Assembly: GCF_017432245.1 (NCBI RefSeq) | Contig: NZ_JAFRJO010000013.1 | Location: 1 to 40,429 of the forward strand | Origin: Methanobrevibacter sp. | Lineage (GTDB): Archaea; Methanobacteriota; Methanobacteria; Methanobacteriales; Methanobacteriaceae | DNA length: 40,429 bases | Direction of reading: 5' to 3' | Notes under the pieces: model-generated | Told to the model about the DNA's origin: nothing | Seen by the model: the letters and a program-made list of their open reading frames with translations, nothing else | Database searches by the model: none | Part shown: positions 11,016-20,148 of the stretch, in pieces | Layout: every line of letters starts with the position of its first letter | Numbering within the stretch: the stretch's first letter is position 1 | Program-made: the position numbers and the translations under genes

Positions 11016-12290
11016 TTAAGAAACACGATCTCTAAATGATTTCAATAATCTTGTTCTAAATACAACCAAGACTATTAAAACAAAACCAATTGCTGTTTGA
11101 ATAGAACCTAAAATAGTAAGCACTATGGAATTAATAGGTAAATTCCATGCAGGAGAAGTTCTGCCATTAGGTAATGCATTGTAGTATACCCCTACAGCAC
11201 GAACATCAGGTTTTACATTCAAGTCACTCGGTTCTACATAATCCACTCCAACAATAAGACCATTATTGATACCCTTATTAATGGAACCGGCTATTGTCGA
11301 TGCATTATAACCATACTTCTTAACTGATGCCTTTACCACTTCTCGGGTAATATCAGACAACCCTGCCTTTTCGCTTCCATAGACAGAAACAGAAACAGCA
11401 TCTTTGGAAATTGTAATTTCATTAATCAATACATCTGTAGCAGAACGAACTTCAAGTTCATGATTACAGATTGGACATACATTATAGTTTTCTGCATCAG
11501 GGAATCCAGTAGCCCAACCACAGTCCAAACATACTTTAGAATAATTTTCATCCATTGGATAACCAGTGGTATTTACTTGTTTTGGTACAAACATGTCTCC
11601 AGTGCTGATTAATGAAACAAGGTTTACTGCACCACCACCGTATTTCTCACCAGAATCTCTAGCTACTTCTTCCATAGCTTTACCGACAATGTAGGTAGCA
11701 GGATATCCATCTCTAATCATTTTACCGATATTTACTGCAGTTTCTCTACGTACACGATCCGCAGTACCATACATAGGGTTACCTGCACTGTTTCTCAAGT
11801 GAATGATAGCTCCTTTTGAACCTTGAGGTAATTGTACAACTCCCCCTTCATGGTGAGTAACTCTGATAGTTCCACTATCATCTACAACAACAAGATATGC
11901 ATTATAGTCCCCACCAATAGCTGCACCCATTGAAGGTCCACCAATAACAAGACGAATACCATTAAAACCACTTGCTAAAGCAGCGGCAGCAGCTGGACTT
12001 GAACCATGTTGCATAGCTCCGAGTGCATCAATAATCGCATAGTTCCTTTCTGTACCATTACCTTCCCCCCCGGAAAGCATAGCATATCCATCATTTTTAG
12101 ACATGATGAATGAAGATTGGAACATGTTATTTGCAAAGGACATACTTCCTGCAGCAGCACCATTTGGATCTTCACCTGAAGGGTCTGTAATAACAATTAC
12201 GTTACAGGTAGCTGAAGCAGTAGCAATTACTGTAAAGAGCATTAAAAATAAAAATATTAAACCAATGATTCGTTTATTCCATTTATTCAA
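11016..12290 (-). CDS. Unrecognised exported, membrane-anchored protein with extracytoplasmic zinc ribbon
   Basis: Family not recognised. The 424-residue product has an N-terminal signal peptide (hydrophobic about 8-27, then ATASATC), a glycine/alanine-rich domain (about 29-230) with VIVITDPSGEDPNGAAAGS, a GGPSMGAAIGGDYN loop and VTHHEGGVVQLPQGSKGAIIHL, a four-Cys zinc ribbon (C254, C257, C272, C275), an alpha/beta segment, and one C-terminal helix (387-411) followed by a basic tail. The topology puts the body, including the zinc ribbon, outside the membrane. Cys29 would be at or near the mature N-terminus, so a lipid anchor or an N-terminal nucleophile is conceivable but unproven. The start is TTG at 12290 with AGGAGG seven bases before it. 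It lies 11 bp behind the POTRA-like gene, clearly in one operon. Confidence 0.7.
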   Translation of the reverse strand: MNKWNKRIIGLIFLFLMLFTVIATASATCNVIVITDPSGEDPNGAAAGSMSFANNMFQSSFIMSKNDGYAMLSGGEGNGTERNYAIIDALGAMQHGSSPAAAAALASGFNGIRLVIGGPSMGAAIGGDYNAYLVVVDDSGTIRVTHHEGGVVQLPQGSKGAIIHLRNSAGNPMYGTADRVRRETAVNIGKMIRDGYPATYIVGKAMEEVARDSGEKYGGGAVNLVSLISTGDMFVPKQVNTTGYPMDENYSKVCLDCGWATGFPDAENYNVCPICNHELEVRSATDVLINEITISKDAVSVSVYGSEKAGLSDITREVVKASVKKYGYNASTIAGSINKGINNGLIVGVDYVEPSDLNVKPDVRAVGVYYNALPNGRTSPAWNLPINSIVLTILGSIQTAIGFVLIVLVVFRTRLLKSFRDRVS

Positions 12291-12301
12291 ATTTTAACCT
12301 C

Positions 12302-12799
12302 CTATCCAGCAATACTATAATTATAAACGCTTTTTGAACTCTCTTGATATGAATTATCAGAAGAAGTAGTTTTATTACCTGTAATATTAATAGTTGAGAA
12401 ATCTTCAATAACAGTAACAGTAACAATACCTGTATCCCTGTTTACACTAACATCCGCTCCTGCAATAGGGGCGATTTTGGTACCTGGGATTGTTGATCTT
12501 CGAACGAATTTTTCTGCATTGGCCTCGGCCTCTGTCACAGGCAGCTCCCGTATGGATGTCTTAAGGATATCACCATCAATATAACTGCCTTCTCTTAAAC
12601 CAGAGTTCTGAACATTATAACGAATACTGTCAATAGGAACTATATCATTTCCTTTAACAATAATACCTGCAATAGGTACACCTTCAGCGACTTCAGCAGA
12701 GGATGCATATGCTACATAGATAATTAATCTGTCACAAACAATTAAGATAAAAGCTAATAATAAAATTATTAAAGTGTCTCTCCTAATTTTTAAAAACAT
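12302..12799 (-). CDS. Membrane-anchored protein with POTRA-like domain
   Basis: A 165-residue protein with one N-terminal transmembrane helix (about 9-31) and an outside domain that reads as POTRA: a first strand IAGIIVKGNDIVP, a helix DSIRYNVQNSGLREGSYID, a second helix GDILKTSIREL / VTEAEANAEKFVRR, and a beta hairpin ADVSVNRDTGIVTVTVIED. The phrase 'V-K-G-N ... S-G-L-R-E-G' is the POTRA signature pattern seen in FtsQ/DivIB and BamA-type proteins. A short Ser/Asn-rich tail follows. AGAGG precedes the ATG. FtsQ-like proteins have one TM helix plus POTRA, as here, so a cell-wall or division role in this pseudomurein-walled archaeon is an inference to test. It is co-transcribed with the exported zinc-ribbon protein. 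Confidence 0.6.
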   Translation of the reverse strand: MFLKIRRDTLIILLLAFILIVCDRLIIYVAYASSAEVAEGVPIAGIIVKGNDIVPIDSIRYNVQNSGLREGSYIDGDILKTSIRELPVTEAEANAEKFVRRSTIPGTKIAPIAGADVSVNRDTGIVTVTVIEDFSTINITGNKTTSSDNSYQESSKSVYNYSIAG

Positions 12800-13098: not shown

Positions 13099-14238
13099 CT
13101 ACATTTTTGTCATTAAGTCCATAATTGAAAAAGGCTCACCTTCTTTTCTCACTCTAGGAGCTCCACCAAAAGCAGCCATAGCATTCTTTTTAAAGTCTTC
13201 ATTAGCTTTTTTTGAAACTTCACCAAAAATCATTTTATAAGCTTCACATTGAGGGTCTACAGCCCTAGGAGATTGGGTGGCAACAATTCCATTATAAGGA
13301 CATCCTCCTCTACAGAACTTAATGAATTTGCAATCTGCACAGTCTTCATCAACAAAATTCTTGAATTCCATTAATTTGCTCCATGCTTCAGACTTCTCTA
13401 AATCTTCCATAGATGGCTCATCGTAAACATTTCCCATTATATATTCTTCCATTCCAACAAAACGATAGCAAGGGTAAATGGAACCATCATGACCAACTGC
13501 AAGTGTAGTTCCCATACAATCATTGAATGTGCAGAGAGTGCCTACCCTTCTAAGGCTACTTTTTGCAATGTGGTCCAAATCCATTATAACAAACTTATCC
13601 AAATCGTATAGGTACTTATCTAACCAATCAATCAACAATTTTCCATGCTCATCTTGAGGAAGTGCCCATGGATCTGCATTATCACCACGTAAAGAAGGTA
13701 AAGCTGCATGAATCTTTAAGTTTAAACCATTTTCCTTAAAGAAATCATATATTTCATCCGAAAAATCCTTTGAATAAGAAGTAAAAGTACAAACAAAATT
13801 GATTTGTATGTCATTTTCAGTAGCTAACTTAACGGATTTCATGGTTTTATCAAAGTATCCTTCACCTCTTTGATAATCATTTATTTCCTTAGGGCCATCA
13901 ATGCTTGTACTGATAGCAATATTGTATTTTGAGAATAATTTTGCCATATCCTCATCTAAAAGCCATAAATTGCTTTGCAGGGAAAAACCTTCAGTTTCAT
14001 GAGTGGTTGCATCATTAAGCAATGGAAGTGCTTTTTCATAGAATTCATAACCTGCAAGCAAAGGTTCACCACCATGGAAAGTGAAATGTACAGGTTCATC
14101 TCTAAAATTAGCTAACCATTTAACAATCTGATTGATTACATCAATATCCATTAATTCTGAATTTTCTTCAGAACCCCAACAGTATGCACAATTGGATGGG
14201 CATCCTAAGGTAGGTATAATCATTACATGAAAAGTCAT
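13099..14238 (-). CDS. Radical SAM/SPASM enzyme, putative peptide-modifying
   Basis: A 379-residue radical SAM protein. The SAM-cleaving [4Fe-4S] motif is C13-x3-C17-x2-C20 (LGCPSNCAYCWG), followed by FTFHGGEPLL, the glycine-rich SAM contact. The C-terminal third is a SPASM domain with further cysteines (CTFNDCMGT, IYPCYRF, CADCKFIKFCRGGCPYNG, DPQCEAY) for auxiliary Fe-S clusters. Such enzymes mature sulfatases or install crosslinks in ribosomally made peptides. The gene lies 71 bp behind a small Cys-rich peptide gene with its own GAGGG ribosome site, so both are probably in one transcript. From memory this resembles the TIGR04083 (Mhun_1560-type) family of methanogens, paired with TIGR04165 peptides. 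The chemistry is not known from sequence. Confidence 0.88.
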   Translation of the reverse strand: MTFHVMIIPTLGCPSNCAYCWGSEENSELMDIDVINQIVKWLANFRDEPVHFTFHGGEPLLAGYEFYEKALPLLNDATTHETEGFSLQSNLWLLDEDMAKLFSKYNIAISTSIDGPKEINDYQRGEGYFDKTMKSVKLATENDIQINFVCTFTSYSKDFSDEIYDFFKENGLNLKIHAALPSLRGDNADPWALPQDEHGKLLIDWLDKYLYDLDKFVIMDLDHIAKSSLRRVGTLCTFNDCMGTTLAVGHDGSIYPCYRFVGMEEYIMGNVYDEPSMEDLEKSEAWSKLMEFKNFVDEDCADCKFIKFCRGGCPYNGIVATQSPRAVDPQCEAYKMIFGEVSKKANEDFKKNAMAAFGGAPRVRKEGEPFSIMDLMTKM

Positions 14239-14309
14239 TTAATCCCTCAAAAATTTAATTAAAAAACAAACAAAGCAATCATTGTAAATTACTTTTAGAA
14301 GAATAATAA

Positions 14310-14528
14310 TTATAATTTTTTATTTAATTCAGTGATAAGATCTTTTTTAATTGTTTCTTCATCAGTTTTTTCATTATCCCTGCCAGTTTCAAAAACATAT
14401 CCGCAATTGTCACATTTAAATTCCTTTAATTCAGCATGTGCGTGATGATTATCAATGAATCTCCTGTGAGCAGTCTTATCAGTAGAACCACATTTAGGAC
14501 ATTTTGCAATTAAATCTTCAAATTTCAT
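14310..14528 (-). CDS. Small Cys-rich CxxC peptide, candidate radical SAM substrate
   Basis: A 72-residue polypeptide with two CxxC pairs (C10/C13 in KCPKCGS and C39/C42 in KCDNCGYVF) around a His-rich centre (RRFIDNHHAHAEL), and a charged helical tail (DEETIKKDLITELNKK). Alone it looks like a zinc ribbon. Its place directly upstream of a SPASM radical SAM gene on the same strand fits the methanogen Cys-rich peptide family recorded (from memory) as TIGR04165, proposed as modification target. AAGGAGAG precedes the ATG. Whether it is a modified product, an electron carrier or a structural partner cannot be decided from sequence. There is no obvious leader/core cleavage site. Confidence 0.8.
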   Translation of the reverse strand: MKFEDLIAKCPKCGSTDKTAHRRFIDNHHAHAELKEFKCDNCGYVFETGRDNEKTDEETIKKDLITELNKKL

Positions 14529-14795: not shown

Positions 14796-15575
14796 ATGAC
14801 ATTAGAACTATTAATTAAGGGAAGTAGTGAAAACTTTTTATTAAGGCAATTGATTAAAAAGAATTTTACTTCCAAATATAAAGATTCTGTATTGGGAATC
14901 CTTTGGAGTTTTTTAAAACCTTTAATAGAAATGGCTATTTTAACAGCTATCTTTTCTACAATATTTGCTAAAAGTATTGAAAATTTCCCTGTTTACTTTA
15001 TGGCAGGACGTTGTATCTTAGACTTTTTTAATGTTGGAACAAAATCCGCTATGACCTCTATTAAGAGCAATAGAAGCATTTTGCAGAAAATTTATGTTCC
15101 TAGATATATCTTTGCTTTAGGTAATATCTGTTCAGAATTCCTTAACTTTTTAATGACAATGATTGTTATGGTAGCCATTATGATTGCAACTAAAGCTCCA
15201 TTTTATGCAATGTCCCTGTTTGCAGTCATTCCTCTAGCAACTTTATTCATATTAATCACAGGTGTAGGATTGATTTTAGCAATTGTATGTACCAAGTTTT
15301 CTGATATTGAATATTTATATAAAATCTTCACAGGTCTATTGACATATGCTTGTGCAATATTTTACCCAATTGATATCGTTCCTCAACCAGTAAGAGGTTA
15401 TATGGAATTGAACCCTATTTATGGGATCATTGCACAATTCAGAGAATTCATAATGTTTGGAAGATTCCCTTCAACCAGACTTATGCTAACTACATTTGCA
15501 TTCTCTGTAATAATATTCATTATAGGAGTATTGATTTTCAGAAGATATCAAGATAAGATTACCTTAGAATTATAA
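14796..15575 (+). CDS. ABC-2 type polysaccharide/polyol-phosphate export permease
   Basis: A 259-residue permease of the Wzm/TagG family. The N-terminus has the family amphipathic element RQLIKKNFTSKYKDSVLGILWSFLKPL, then six hydrophobic helices (about 38-58, 61-80, 100-125, 140-165, 175-195, 230-250). The segment FYPIDIVPQPVRGYMELNPIYGIIAQFREFI before the last helix is also diagnostic. It would move a lipid-linked glycan across the cytoplasmic membrane. The ATPase gene follows 54 bp downstream with its own AGAGA site. Together with the glycosyltransferase and nucleotide-sugar genes behind it, this forms a surface-glycan locus; which polymer is exported is not evident. One of few plus-strand genes here. 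Confidence 0.9.
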   Translation: MTLELLIKGSSENFLLRQLIKKNFTSKYKDSVLGILWSFLKPLIEMAILTAIFSTIFAKSIENFPVYFMAGRCILDFFNVGTKSAMTSIKSNRSILQKIYVPRYIFALGNICSEFLNFLMTMIVMVAIMIATKAPFYAMSLFAVIPLATLFILITGVGLILAIVCTKFSDIEYLYKIFTGLLTYACAIFYPIDIVPQPVRGYMELNPIYGIIAQFREFIMFGRFPSTRLMLTTFAFSVIIFIIGVLIFRRYQDKITLEL

Positions 15576-15629
15576 GAAACTTTTAAAAATTAATAAATTA
15601 AAATAAAATCAAATTCATGGAGAGATAAT

Positions 15630-16523
15630 ATGGCTAAAAGTCAAAATGAAAAGGAAAGCATCATTACTAAAATCATTAATTTATTTAGGAATATTATCTC
15701 ACCAAAAGATAAGCTTTTAGAAAACAAGGAAGGAGTAGATGACAATATAGCTATTGAATTGAAAAATGTTTCTTTAAGCTTTAAAATCGGAAATGACAAA
15801 ATTGATAATTTAAAGGAATATGTCATCAGAACATTGAACAGAACAAAAGAAAAGAAAACTATTTTTAAAGCAACTGATGATGTATCATTTAAAATTTACA
15901 AAGGCGAAAAAGTCGGAATTATCGGCTTTAATGGTGCTGGAAAAAGTACATTGCTTAAAATCATATCTGGCGTTTACACCCCTGATGAAGGGGAAGTTAT
16001 CATTAATGGAAACATTGCACCTCTTTTATCATTAGGTGCAGGATTCGATAAGAATTATTCAGGTAGAGAAAACATTTTCCTAAATGGGGCAATTCTTGGA
16101 TATGATGAGAAATTCTTAAGAGCAAAATATGATGAGATTCTTGAATTTTCCGAACTAGGAGAATTTATTAATCTTCCTGTAAAAAATTACTCATCAGGTA
16201 TGCTATCAAAACTTGGATTTTCAATTGCTACAATTGTAGATCCTGATATTTTGATTCTTGATGAAGTTCTTGGAGTAGGAGACATTAACTTTAGAAAAAA
16301 AAGTAAGGAAAAACTCAAGTCATTAATGGCTTCAAATACTACTGTATTACTTGTATCTCACTCCATTGAGGAAATTAGAAGCATATGTGATAAAGCTATT
16401 TGGATTGACAAAGGAAAAGTAATAGATTTTAATGAAGTGAATTCCGTTTGTGACAAATATGAAGAAGCTGCAAAGAATGCAAGCAAGGAAAAAACTAAAA
16501 AATTAAAACCACAAAGATTTTAG
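15630..16523 (+). CDS. ABC transporter ATP-binding protein for polysaccharide export
   Basis: The nucleotide-binding partner of the upstream permease. Walker A GFNGAGKST is at 99-107, the signature YSSGM at 187-191 (with LSKLGFSIA), Walker B ILILDE at 207-212, followed by VLGVGD and the switch histidine in LLVSHS. The long insertion before Walker A and the phrase PLLSLGAGFDKNYSGRENIFLNG are hallmarks of the Wzt/TagH group. At 297 residues it lacks the C-terminal carbohydrate-recognition domain of long Wzt proteins, so recognition of a capped glycan is not expected. A ~35-residue charged N-terminal extension precedes the ATPase domain. The transcript ends at a hairpin with a U-run just past the stop codon. 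Confidence 0.93.
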   Translation: MAKSQNEKESIITKIINLFRNIISPKDKLLENKEGVDDNIAIELKNVSLSFKIGNDKIDNLKEYVIRTLNRTKEKKTIFKATDDVSFKIYKGEKVGIIGFNGAGKSTLLKIISGVYTPDEGEVIINGNIAPLLSLGAGFDKNYSGRENIFLNGAILGYDEKFLRAKYDEILEFSELGEFINLPVKNYSSGMLSKLGFSIATIVDPDILILDEVLGVGDINFRKKSKEKLKSLMASNTTVLLVSHSIEEIRSICDKAIWIDKGKVIDFNEVNSVCDKYEEAAKNASKEKTKKLKPQRF

Positions 16524-16556
16524 GTTACGGCTATTTAATAGATTACCTATTTTTTT
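16522..16556 (+). terminator. Terminator after the ABC exporter genes
   Basis: AGGT...ACCT (16522-16548) encloses an inner CTAT-TTA-ATAG hairpin and is followed by seven T residues on the plus strand (16550-16556), immediately after the ATPase stop codon and before the convergent glycosyltransferase gene. A weak stem, but the T-run is of the type known to end archaeal transcripts. Confidence 0.55.
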
Positions 16557-16577
16557 ATTAAACAATCCAAAACTAAT

Positions 16578-17258
16578 CTATTTTTTAAATGTTCTAATAA
16601 TCTTATCCTTTGCAATATTGAATAGAACACCGACTCCATGAGTTATTGGATCTTTTGTAGAACCATCAACATCATAACGGACAGTAATAGGCACTTCAAC
16701 TATTTTTAGACCTGATTCAGCTGCATCTACAAGCATTTCACTTTCAATTCCAAAACCGGTTCCCTTAAATCTAAAGCAATCTTTTGACTTGCTGGAAAAT
16801 GCCCTAAAACCGCTTTGAGAATCTGTAATACTAATACCTGCAGAAACATTTGTGGCAATATCCAAAACCTTTTGGCCAACTCTCCTATAAGCGGGAGTAT
16901 TCTCTTCAGGACCATTCATATATCTGCTACCATTAACCAAATCAGCACCATCTTCAATAATTGGCTTAATCAAAATAGGAATTTCATCTGGATTATGTTG
17001 ACCATCACCATCAATTGTTACAATGATAGAATCATCTTTAATAGCTTTAAAACCAGATTTTAATGCTTCCCCTTTTCCTAAATTAGTGCTATGACTAATT
17101 AGTTCAGCACCTGCTTCAATAGCTACTTCTGCAGTCTTATCAACACTGCCATCATCAACAACAATAACCTTATCCACATATTTTAAAGTTGTAGCTATTA
17201 CATTAGCCAACTCTTCTTCTTCATTGTATGCAGGTATGATAGCCACTATATTTGCCAT
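16578..17258 (-). CDS. Family 2 glycosyltransferase (polyprenyl-phosphate sugar synthase type)
   Basis: A 226-residue GT-A glycosyltransferase with no transmembrane helices. Family 2 marks are IIPAYNEEEEL near the N-terminus, VIVVDDGSVDKT (nucleotide-binding Asp), TIDGDGQHNPDE (the metal-binding DxD-type motif) and GSRYMNG. The C-terminal ITDSQSGFRAF and EVPITVRYDVDGSTKDP are typical of dolichol/polyprenyl-phosphate mannose or glucose synthases. It would transfer a sugar from a nucleotide donor to a lipid phosphate carrier on the cytoplasmic face, feeding glycan or S-layer assembly. It converges with the ABC exporter genes. Confidence 0.9.
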   Translation of the reverse strand: MANIVAIIPAYNEEEELANVIATTLKYVDKVIVVDDGSVDKTAEVAIEAGAELISHSTNLGKGEALKSGFKAIKDDSIIVTIDGDGQHNPDEIPILIKPIIEDGADLVNGSRYMNGPEENTPAYRRVGQKVLDIATNVSAGISITDSQSGFRAFSSKSKDCFRFKGTGFGIESEMLVDAAESGLKIVEVPITVRYDVDGSTKDPITHGVGVLFNIAKDKIIRTFKK

Positions 17259-17300
17259 TTTATCACTTTAATAAGTTTAATTGAAAAAAGAAAAAAGAAT

Positions 17301-17416
17301 TACAAATCTTTAAAATAAAATAAAGAATTTACAAATCTTTAAAATAAAATAATGAATTTACAAATCTTTAAAATAAAATAAAGAATTTACAAATCTTTAA
17401 AATAAAATAAAATAAA
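17301..17416. repeat. Four tandem copies of a 29-bp A+T-rich unit
   Basis: The unit begins TACAAATCTTTAAAATAAAA at 17301, 17330, 17359 and 17388, giving an exact 29-bp period. The third copy is preceded by AATG instead of AAAG, and the last ends with extra AAAATA steps. It fills most of the space between the epimerase 3' end and the glycosyltransferase start. It looks like a slippage-generated minisatellite rather than an ordered regulatory array. Confidence 0.9.
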
Positions 17417-17430
17417 GAATGAAGATTAAT

Positions 17431-18402
17431 TTAATCTTCTATTCTGTAATACCATCTCATCCATTCAACAGTTCTTTTGATTCCTTCTTTAGGATCAACT
17501 TTAGGGTCATGCTTTAAATCACGAATTGCTTTTGAAAAGTCAATGGTTTTAACTTTGGTAGTGAATGCTTCAGCAGGTGTGTAAGTTACCAATGAATCAT
17601 CAACACCTACGGCTTCAAGAACCAAATCAGAATACTCTTCAATAGTCATTTCCCATTCCTGTTTACTTCCAACATTGTAAACTTCACCAGGAATGAAGTT
17701 ATCGACGATATTTGCAAAGGTATTTGCAGTATCTTCAACATAATCAATAATTCTTTTATGGCCTTTATGAACAGAATAAGGTAATCCATGAAGGGCTTTA
17801 TAAATAAAAATTGGAATGAACCCTTTATAAGGGGAATAAGCTTCATGAGGACCATAACAATTTACAGGGCGAACTCTTACAGTTTCAGTTCCAAACATGG
17901 TTGCAGAGTTCATGCACATCAATTCTCCAGCCCATTTGGAAATGGCATAGTCATTCATTTGATAGGTATCCTTTATTGGCCTATTTTCCATAACATCTTC
18001 AGTCATGATACCCTCATAATCCCCATAAACTTCTGCAGATGAAAATGAAATCATTCTAAATCCTAATTTCTCTTGAAGACGAATCATGTTCTTTAATCCG
18101 ATTACATTGGTCTCCCAAAGGTTTTCATAATAACCTTCACCATTCCATCTTCCATATTCTGCTGCTAAGTTATAAACATAATCAAATTTTTCATTATCAT
18201 CAAAAATCCTCTCCATTTGACGATAATTACGAATGTCTCCTCTAACATAGTCAGAATAGGAATCAGAGTATAAATCCGCTTCATCTTCATGATGCAATAA
18301 GTCTACGGACAATACTTCATGTCCTCTACTTCTAAGCTCATTTACAAGATTAGTTCCTATAAATCCACTTCCACCAGTTACCATAATTCTTTGAGTTTCC
18401 AT
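17431..18402 (-). CDS. NAD-dependent sugar-nucleotide epimerase/dehydratase (extended SDR)
   Basis: A 323-residue extended short-chain dehydrogenase: NAD loop MVTGGSGFIGTN near the N-terminus, then DLLHHED for the adenosine ribose, NLAAEYG, the catalytic Ser in ISFSSAEVYGD and the Y-x3-K pair in DYAISKWAGE. The VNCYGPHE and YVEDTANTFAN segments are typical of the UDP-glucose 4-epimerase / dTDP-glucose dehydratase / UDP-glucuronate branch. The exact sugar is not evident. A GTG at 18411 is inside AAGAAGGTG, which is better read as the ribosome site of ATG 18402. It lies between a coiled-coil gene 64 bp upstream and a glycosyltransferase downstream, so a role in the same surface glycan is likely. 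Confidence 0.88.
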   Translation of the reverse strand: METQRIMVTGGSGFIGTNLVNELRSRGHEVLSVDLLHHEDEADLYSDSYSDYVRGDIRNYRQMERIFDDNEKFDYVYNLAAEYGRWNGEGYYENLWETNVIGLKNMIRLQEKLGFRMISFSSAEVYGDYEGIMTEDVMENRPIKDTYQMNDYAISKWAGELMCMNSATMFGTETVRVRPVNCYGPHEAYSPYKGFIPIFIYKALHGLPYSVHKGHKRIIDYVEDTANTFANIVDNFIPGEVYNVGSKQEWEMTIEEYSDLVLEAVGVDDSLVTYTPAEAFTTKVKTIDFSKAIRDLKHDPKVDPKEGIKRTVEWMRWYYRIED

Positions 18403-18466
18403 AAAAAACACCTTCTTTAATAAATACCATTAATAAATATCATAAATTTCCAATACAAATCAAAAA

Positions 18467-19012
18467 CTAAATATCAATATCATCTAGGCTTTTAGGTTTT
18501 TTACCTCTTACCCGATCAAAAAATCCTAAATCTTCAAATTCATTTAAAGCATATTTCAAATCTGCTAATTTTGTATATGCTATATCCAAACGATTTTCCA
18601 AAAAGAAAGTTCTTTGATTTTGACGAATCCTTGATTTCTTAAGTTCCCTTTCCAAACCAGCAATTTCATAATTAGCATCATTCAATTCTTTTGTTAAATT
18701 ATTTATCAATTCATTTAATTTTTCATTATCTGCCCTTTCAGTCTTAAGATATCTTCTAAGTACATCAATTCTATGATTTAATTTTTTAGTTTCAAGAGCT
18801 AATTCTTCAATATCATATTGACGCACTTCCAGTTCCAAGGATTCGAATCGCATAATGTCTCTTGAAAGATTCTCCCTTTCTATAGCAAAATGCTCTATTC
18901 TATCCTCATAGGATTCACACCTTTGCTTAAGAATACGATTTTCCTTCCTATAATTGGAAAGCTGTATCTTTAACTCTTCTATCTCTTCCTGAGGGCTTTT
19001 CTCATTATTCAT
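18467..19012 (-). CDS. Coiled-coil protein of unknown function
   Basis: A 181-residue, almost entirely helical, strongly charged protein. Heptad-like hydrophobic spacing runs from about residue 6 to 150 (for example EIEELKIQLSNYRKENRILK and ELNDANYEIAGLERELKKSR), and the C-terminus ends in a short non-coil segment (FEDLGFFDRVRGKKPKSL). No signal peptide, membrane helix or catalytic motif is visible. It sits between galU and an epimerase gene on the same strand, with 101 and 64 bp gaps, so it may scaffold glycan-synthesis enzymes, but that rests only on position. Confidence 0.7.
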   Translation of the reverse strand: MNNEKSPQEEIEELKIQLSNYRKENRILKQRCESYEDRIEHFAIERENLSRDIMRFESLELEVRQYDIEELALETKKLNHRIDVLRRYLKTERADNEKLNELINNLTKELNDANYEIAGLERELKKSRIRQNQRTFFLENRLDIAYTKLADLKYALNEFEDLGFFDRVRGKKPKSLDDIDI

Positions 19013-19113
19013 TGAATCACTTAAAAATCATTTTAAGATAAAATTAAAAACTGAAAAAATTAAAAAATGATAACAAATGAAAGATAAATAAATATTTAAA
19101 AATATTAAAATAA

Positions 19114-19959
19114 TTAAATAATTTCATTTTTAATAAAATCTAAAATTTCGTCTTTAGCCTTCTCATCATATAATGCAATTTTTAAAGAAGACTTTAACCA
19201 ATCAATACGATTACCAATATCAAAAGATTCCCCTGTAAATACTTGGCCATATATTTCATCCAATTTAGATAATGCATCAGTCAATTGGATTTCTCCACCA
19301 TAACCTGGCTCAACATTCTCTATATGGTCAAAGATATCTGGGGTTAAAACGTATCTTCCCATAATAGCTAAATTACTTGGTGCAACTCTTAAAGGAGGTT
19401 TTTCAATCAATTTATCTATTTTGTAGATATTAGGTTCAATCTCTTCTCCTCCAATAATACCATACCTTTCAACTTTCTCATCAGGAACTTCCTCTAATGC
19501 AATTACTGATTTGCCATACTTGTTATAAATGTCAATCAATTGTTTTGTGCAAGGAACCTTATCTTTTGTAATTGTGTCCCCTAACATTACAACAAATGGA
19601 TCATCCCCAACATGTTTTTTTGCACAATAAATAGCATCTCCAAGACCTTTTTGCTTTTTTTGCCTTATGAAATGAATATCTGCCAAATCAGAGATGTATT
19701 CAATTTCCTTTAAAAAGTCTTCTTTGCCTTTAGTTTTTAAGTGATGCTCCAATTCAAAAGATCTGTCGAAATGATCTTCAATTGATCTTTTTCCTTTACC
19801 AGTCACAATTAAAATGTCATCAACACCAGAGCTTACAGACTCTTCGATTACATATTGTATAGTTGGTTTATCATAAACAGGTAACATTTCCTTTGGTTGA
19901 GCTTTAGTTGCAGGCAAGAATCTTGTTCCTAAACCTGCTGCAGGAATAACCGCCTTCAT
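19114..19959 (-). CDS. galU: UTP--glucose-1-phosphate uridylyltransferase
   Basis: Makes UDP-glucose from UTP and glucose-1-phosphate. The N-terminal MKAVIPAAGLGTRFLPATKA with QPKEMLPVYDKP is the pyrophosphorylase signature (nucleotide-binding Gly loop and catalytic Arg/Lys). Further GalU features are ILIVTGKGKRSIEDHFD, FIRQKKQKGLGDAI, VMLGDT and the C-terminal GESFDIGNRIDWLKS. The length of 281 residues is normal. Two ATGs are adjacent; the second (19959) sits five bases after GAGGTG and is the better start. With the epimerase, GT2 and exporter it supplies activated sugar for surface glycans; galE at 28.1-29.1 kb would make UDP-galactose from its product. Confidence 0.95.
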   Translation of the reverse strand: MKAVIPAAGLGTRFLPATKAQPKEMLPVYDKPTIQYVIEESVSSGVDDILIVTGKGKRSIEDHFDRSFELEHHLKTKGKEDFLKEIEYISDLADIHFIRQKKQKGLGDAIYCAKKHVGDDPFVVMLGDTITKDKVPCTKQLIDIYNKYGKSVIALEEVPDEKVERYGIIGGEEIEPNIYKIDKLIEKPPLRVAPSNLAIMGRYVLTPDIFDHIENVEPGYGGEIQLTDALSKLDEIYGQVFTGESFDIGNRIDWLKSSLKIALYDEKAKDEILDFIKNEII

Positions 19960-20148
19960 CATTACACCTCAAAAAATTAGAATTTTAAAATTCTCAAATA
20001 TTAAAGAATTTATATATTTTAATTTTATTAATAAAAATATATAAATATGATGAAAAAATAGGCTTTTTTAAAAAAATAGCAATGAAAATATGTTAAAATA
20101 AAAAAGTTAAAAATCAGCAAAAAAAATTGATAAAACCAGATTATAAAA

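Follow-up and report, generated by a model that had tools for sequence, protein, structure and literature searches.

What does a radical SAM/SPASM enzyme act on when its gene sits beside that of a small Cys-rich protein? The pair in question lies in a stretch of 40,429 nucleotides from Methanobrevibacter sp. (NZ_JAFRJO010000013.1, positions 1 to 40,429), analysed whole and called the window here, with the peptide gene 71 bp upstream of the enzyme gene on the same (-) strand (Table 1). The initial annotation, made from the letters alone, had taken the two for a peptide-modification system, named the families TIGR04083 and TIGR04165, and supposed that the peptide is modified at or near its Cys or His residues. 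Both reading frames are present as it described them, with the CX3CX2C motif, the SPASM cysteines and the two CxxC pairs, and the family names it gave are correct: the enzyme scores 591 bits against TIGR04083 (NCBIfam; curated cut-off 300; model positions 1-376 of 376) and the 72-aa protein 92 bits against TIGR04165 (NCBIfam; curated cut-off 60). The NCBIfam pair consists of exactly these two families, and its enzyme is named "peptide-modifying". Unlike that name, the present data indicate McrA, a subunit of MCR, as the substrate, the peptide being missing from the enzyme-bearing Methanosarcinia tested. TIGR04083 quite probably converts one Asp of McrA to didehydroaspartate, with TIGR04165 as its helper in Methanobacteria and not its product. 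The families, folds, gene linkage, phyletic match and M. wolfeii lesion described below were all computed here.

Table 1. Position of the two genes and their conserved elements in the window
Feature	Position	Strand	Basis or remark
Radical SAM/SPASM enzyme, TIGR04083, 379 aa; proposed MCR aspartate desaturase	13099..14238	-	NCBIfam, AlphaFold model, mcrA-linked orthologs in Methanosarcinia
C-terminal tail (I/V)MDLMxK of enzyme, conserved	13102..13125	-	Enzyme alignment; missing from M. wolfeii ortholog
SPASM region, eight Cys (236, 241, 257, 300, 303, 309, 313, 331)	13246..13533	-	Invariant in 18- and 33-enzyme alignments
Radical SAM cluster motif CX3CX2C (Cys13/Cys17/Cys20)	14179..14202	-	Invariant in 18- and 33-enzyme alignments
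Small Cys-rich protein, TIGR04165, 72 aa; predicted TFIIS-like zinc ribbon and variable C-terminal helix	14310..14528	-	NCBIfam, model, fold matches
Second knuckle CDNC (Cys39/Cys42)	14403..14414	-	Invariant in 25 diverse peptides
His-rich turn HHAH (residues 28-31)	14436..14447	-	Not conserved in genus g12
First knuckle CPKC (Cys10/Cys13)	14490..14501	-	Invariant in 25 diverse peptides

Family and Fold of the Enzyme

The window enzyme carries both marks of a radical SAM/SPASM protein, the CX3CX2C motif and the SPASM cysteines (seven or eight are expected), and is 93-98% identical to its nearest named relatives, which come from M. olleyae and other Methanobrevibacter bins. Family searches relate it to the peptide maturases PapB, DynA and AmcB. 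The closest PDB fold to its AlphaFold model (pLDDT 86.5) is anSMEcpe (TM 0.78-0.83), which is also its best PDB sequence match (26% identity). The radical SAM domain begins at residue 4, and the enzyme therefore has no N-terminal peptide-recognition domain. In this, and in joining a radical SAM domain to a SPASM domain with eight Cys, it resembles anSME (TIGR03942; PDB 4K36-4K39), which acts on a protein segment through C-beta oxidation. It differs from anSME in falling below that family's cut-off, in its conserved C-terminal tail, in its linkage to mcrA or TIGR04165, and in having Tyr258, directly after Cys257, where anSMEcpe has the catalytic Asp277. This Tyr is invariant in the 33-sequence alignment and found in nearly all orthologs, with Gln only in the distant L101.

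The Gene Pair in Methanobacteria

Both genes were found in 134 of 152 Methanobacteriota genomes, neither in 14 and only one in four; the gene lies at a contig end in the two enzyme-only genomes, and the two peptide-only genomes are bins 63-64% complete. The co-occurrence has a Fisher p of 6e-16, a value inflated by joint loss in incomplete bins. The initial annotation had proposed comparing gene order across Methanobacteriales, and the comparison bears out the arrangement: the pair is adjacent, on one strand and within 1 kb in 103 genomes, the peptide being upstream in 102. The neighbours of the pair vary from genus to genus, which argues that the adjacency itself is under selection, and chance adjacency is excluded, as the same order recurs in these 102 genomes across the order among different neighbours. 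In genera g12, g13 and g17 the pair is unlinked, yet both genes are kept; g12 we take to be Methanosphaera, judging from genome G128.

The Enzyme without the Peptide in Methanosarcinia

An alignment-based scan of GTDB genomes returned full-length orthologs (53-56% identity) from ANME-2, Methanoperedens and other Methanosarcinales, and no TIGR04165-like ORF was found near those loci. The enzyme exceeds its cut-off in at least 152 of 238 Methanosarcinia genomes, among them Methanosarcina, Methanothrix, ANME-2 and Methanoperedens, almost always in single copy and with scores of up to 723 bits, above those in Methanobacteria. Whole-genome searches of 12 enzyme-bearing Methanosarcinia for the peptide gave none, the best match being 19 bits inside a 295-residue ORF; with M. 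acetivorans, a named control that has the enzyme and no peptide, this makes 13 of 13 tested. The initial annotation had said that an enzyme found without the peptide in most genomes would tell against its proposal, and in this class that is largely what we see. Hence the enzyme has a function there that does not need the peptide. In the enzyme tree a single branch separates Methanobacteria from Methanosarcinia (support 100/97), and by sequence the enzymes of both are one family. The tree's sole outgroup, L101, is a very long branch, and its rooting fits peptide loss in Methanosarcinia or gain in Methanobacteria.

Linkage to mcrA

Almost all biological methane comes from MCR, which also sets off the anaerobic oxidation of methane. 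In 36 Methanosarcinia genomes we searched the surroundings of the enzyme gene, up to 20 kb in each, with Mcr proteins. Ten of the 36 loci (L301-L303, L316-L322) have mcrA 159-478 bp ahead of the enzyme gene and four more (L325, L306, L310, L279) 1.5-5 kb ahead, always on one strand, so that 14 are linked to mcr; mcrA was not found in the remaining fetched Methanosarcinia stretches, and the Methanobacteria loci examined show no such linkage. Against a role in MCR stands the separation of the gene from mcr in Methanosarcina, most ANME-2 and Methanobacteria, as does a terminator-like hairpin with a T run in the gap between mcrA and the enzyme gene of L302, so that the two may be transcribed separately.

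Two of these loci, from the Methanoperedens-type genomes G693 and G695, carry a 718-residue B12-type radical SAM protein directly behind the mcr operon (L279:9142-11298 and L310:11840-13993). At 62 bits against a family cut-off of 360, this protein does not qualify as MgmA, and it is a candidate for making the 3(S)-methylhistidine of McrG that has been reported only in ANME-2d (PMC12413448).

Match to the Distribution of Didehydroaspartate

Didehydroaspartate (Asp470 in M. acetivorans), one of several modifications of MCR alpha, is unevenly distributed and has no known enzyme (PMC7581889, PMC8070964, PMC7058361); its report dates from 2016, and in reviews of 2020-2022 the way it is made is still given as unknown (PMC7581889, PMC8070964). 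Table 1 of PMC9081873 lists M. marburgensis, M. barkeri and M. acetivorans as having it, and M. kandleri, M. formicicus, M. wolfeii, M. thermolithotrophicus, M. shengliensis, ANME-1 and Ca. Ethanoperedens as lacking it. ANME-2c and two ANME-2d also have it (PMC12413448). In wild-type M. acetivorans the tryptic McrA peptide 461-491 gives m/z 3432 (PMC5589413). We assigned genomes to the species of published MCRs through McrA comparison. The McrA of G151 is identical at 550 of 550 residues to PDB 5A8K, which is M. wolfeii (PMC9081873, PMC9118554). G144 is M. marburgensis, its McrA differing from that of M. wolfeii at exactly the five sites where PDB 3POT does. The McrA of G666 (Ca. E. thermophilum) is identical to 7B1S at 595 of 595 residues, that of G181 (M. 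kandleri) matches 1E6V almost throughout, and that of G655 (ANME-2c) is almost identical to PDB 9QM5. We take G797 to be M. acetivorans C2A, and G799 is presumably M. barkeri MS. On the C2A chromosome the TIGR04083 gene occupies 4,090,849-4,091,973 (+ strand).

The gene is intact where the modification is present: in M. marburgensis, M. acetivorans, the putative M. barkeri (G799), ANME-2c and ANME-2d (Methanoperedens). No enzyme gene was found in M. kandleri, Ca. E. thermophilum or the Methanococcales tested (M. jannaschii as control), and that of M. wolfeii is interrupted. For five groups with and four without the modification, Fisher's exact p is 0.008 with Methanococcales counted once and kinship ignored, or 0.018 without Methanococcales, kinship again ignored. 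Contrasts within close groups fit the pattern as well, in M. wolfeii against M. marburgensis and in Ethanoperedens against Methanoperedens. The comparison covers nine species or groups and leaves out M. shengliensis and ANME-1; the Methermicoccus McrA was not found among the McrA sequences of G670, G732 and G834.

Among the listed MCR modifications no other has the same distribution as the gene (PMC9081873, PMC7058361). Three were considered as the product and rejected on the same sources: S-methylcysteine, which already has McmA, occurs in M. wolfeii; M. kandleri, where no gene was found, contains methylglutamine; and 6-hydroxytryptophan is absent from M. marburgensis, where the gene is intact (PMC9081873, PMC7058361). 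As for predictions, G001, a complete 1.2 Mb genome of the same class as the window, has neither enzyme nor peptide, carries two mcrA genes and is predicted to be without didehydroaspartate.

Interrupted Orthologs

The M. wolfeii enzyme gene has one in-frame stop, a TAG where the orthologs encode an invariant Tyr, in a frame that is otherwise open. It removes the last 39 of 375 residues, from just behind the last SPASM Cys, including the (I/V)MDLMxK tail, though the strain is possibly not the one crystallised and a single stop codon could be an assembly error. Of about 284 orthologs that exceed the cut-off, three are interrupted (the G151 stop, a one-base frameshift in G149 and a TGA in G058), and one of the three thus belongs to M. 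wolfeii, the sole species of its genus known to be without the modification. The TIGR04165 gene of M. wolfeii is intact although the enzyme gene is broken, which suggests that the peptide may have a use of its own. The frameshifted gene of G149, presumably M. thermautotrophicus delta-H, lies at L213:3712-4835; the frameshift could stem from a sequencing error of old date, or else the gene was naturally lost a second time, which would predict plain Asp in that MCR.

The Small Protein as a Predicted Zinc Ribbon

The AlphaFold model of the TIGR04165 protein (mean pLDDT 74.5) has a hairpin between the two CxxC knuckles, with strands E18-24, E32-39 and E45-48. Two knuckles around a beta-hairpin are the mark of TFIIS-like zinc ribbons, and the best fold matches are indeed the zinc ribbons of Pol I RPA12 and TFIIS, weak as these are (E 0.09-0.5). 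TFIIS/RPA12-type ribbons and archaeal small zinc-finger proteins share this layout with TIGR04165, at 50-80 residues; unlike them, it is linked to a radical SAM gene and keeps DK and R without variation behind its first knuckle. Across 25 diverse peptides the invariant residues are M1, K2, C10, P11, C13, G14, D17, K18, R22, C39 and C42, and the length of the C-terminal tail ranges between a few residues and about 25. The initial annotation had also pointed to a His-rich centre, which holds for the window peptide (His21, 28, 29 and 31, between the CxxC pairs) but not as a constant feature, being lost in g12, where F or Y replaces H, and partly lost in g4, g18 and g19.

A RiPP precursor would be expected to combine a conserved leader with a variable core, and to lie beside the enzyme wherever the enzyme occurs. 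Here the body of the predicted zinc ribbon is conserved and the tail variable, and as modelled the protein is a zinc ribbon rather than a leader/core precursor. So far TIGR04165 has been found only in Methanobacteria, where in all likelihood it assists the enzyme and is not its product; the help would consist in docking to McrA or, less likely, in carrying electrons.

There are two kinds of TIGR04165 paralog, which keep the knuckles and the DK and have a longer loop; none lies directly beside a radical SAM gene. Those with the longer loop and without the His motif are at L082:14872-15096, L077:4025-4252, L086:5429-5647, L087:5936-6172 and L088:6204-6422. The two that were scored, from L082 and L087, exceed the TIGR04165 cut-off. 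The NCBIfam model mixes paralogs with the pair peptide. Three of the longer-loop paralogs have ferredoxin genes and a formyltransferase-like (Ftr) gene in their neighbourhood, which is possibly the eha region. The peptide gene itself is near those of a 54-residue two-cluster ferredoxin and a flavoprotein of the geranylgeranyl-reductase family in L075, L090, L091 and L093 (g12), L077 (g14) and L072 (g10). A link to geranylgeranyl lipid reduction was considered and set aside as a side observation, these neighbours being limited to g10, g12 and g14 and, near the enzyme, g5.

Alternative Explanations

The reading closest to the initial annotation, in which the enzyme modifies the TIGR04165 peptide as a RiPP-like or thioether-forming pair, would account for the close adjacency and co-occurrence of the two genes, with the peptide first, and would suit both the enzyme's kinship to PapB, DynA and AmcB and its family name. 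It is nevertheless unlikely, since the enzyme of Methanosarcinia goes without the peptide and is linked there to mcrA, the small protein has a zinc-ribbon body without a leader/core pattern, its paralogs with the same Cys lie away from the enzyme, the pair is unlinked in three genera, and the His residues that were to be modified are not conserved. The pairing in Methanobacteria is nonetheless strong, and MCR alone does not explain it, which counts against the desaturase reading. A narrower alternative concerns the helper: it could resemble rubredoxin and serve in Methanobacteria as a redox partner, accepting or donating the electrons of the radical SAM reaction. Its CxxCGYxF resembles a rubredoxin knuckle (Pfam RUBY_RBDX, E 2e-5, below that family's cut-off), and the ferredoxin and flavoprotein genes near it in three genera point the same way, but the fold matches are to TFIIS/RPA12 zinc ribbons and not to rubredoxin, Methanosarcinia do without it, and the flavoprotein is by family a lipid enzyme. 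We regard this role as rather doubtful; it touches the helper only and is compatible with the enzyme being a desaturase.

Linkage to mcrA names no residue, and nine species or groups are a small sample, so the enzyme might act on MCR in some other way, through an unreported modification or a step of assembly or repair, its match to didehydroaspartate being coincidental. This seems improbable to us, as didehydroaspartate is the only modification in PMC9081873 with the observed pattern, the M. wolfeii exception included, and a two-electron oxidation without methyl transfer suits a SPASM enzyme that has no B12 domain. The sequence and fold matches to anSMEcpe could also be read to mean that the enzyme is an anaerobic sulfatase maturase. 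That it makes formylglycine is extremely unlikely, and we rejected it, because it reaches only 187 bits against the curated cut-off of 349 and lacks the general base Asp277, replaced by Tyr258. We propose instead that its nearness to anSME in fold and family, an enzyme of C-beta oxidation on a protein substrate without an N-terminal recognition domain, favours the desaturase by analogy.

A Proposed Aspartate Desaturase

On balance, TIGR04083 is likely the first radical SAM/SPASM aspartate desaturase to be identified, installing the didehydroaspartate of MCR with a dedicated zinc-ribbon helper in Methanobacteria and with none in Methanosarcinia. Our literature search, which left preprints and many subscription papers outside its scope, found no paper on TIGR04083 or TIGR04165 and none naming a didehydroaspartate gene, so an earlier identification is possible. 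We infer the substrate, the position, the chemistry and the helper's role from the results above. The target in McrA would be Asp470 (M. acetivorans numbering) in the loop LGFxGxDLQDQCG. By analogy with the anSME fold, the radical SAM cluster would cleave SAM, and the resulting 5'-deoxyadenosyl radical would abstract hydrogen at C-beta of the Asp side chain; an electron would then pass from the substrate radical to an auxiliary SPASM cluster, and the radical would lose a proton. As the loop is buried, access to McrA would be needed ahead of assembly, and the enzyme would thus work before the MCR hexamer closes, much as anSME does on a stretch of sulfatase that is still extended.

Mmp10/MamA (5-methylarginine) and MgmA (2-methylglutamine) are likewise radical SAM enzymes that act on McrA and are patchily distributed in methanogens; they are B12-dependent methyltransferases, whereas TIGR04083, which lacks a B12 domain, would desaturate rather than methylate. 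If the assignment is true, it adds the C-alpha=C-beta desaturation of Asp to radical SAM chemistry, corrects the "peptide-modifying" name, and completes a part needed for expressing fully modified MCR. A candidate gene in the genetically tractable Methanosarcina makes the synthesis and purpose of didehydroaspartate directly testable. More generally, it appears that close pairing of two genes within a single lineage can mislead about the substrate.

Genes around the Pair

Downstream of the enzyme gene in the window are tandem genes of the Mfer763 and Mfer764 families, of unassigned function (11016-12799). On the other side, at 14796-19962, divergent polysaccharide-export ABC transporter genes are followed by a GT2 glycosyltransferase, an epimerase and a nucleotidyltransferase, forming a surface-glycan cluster that adjoins the pair. 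One bin with 8% contamination (G108) has two full enzyme-peptide pairs, on contigs C293 and C187 (L017, L072).
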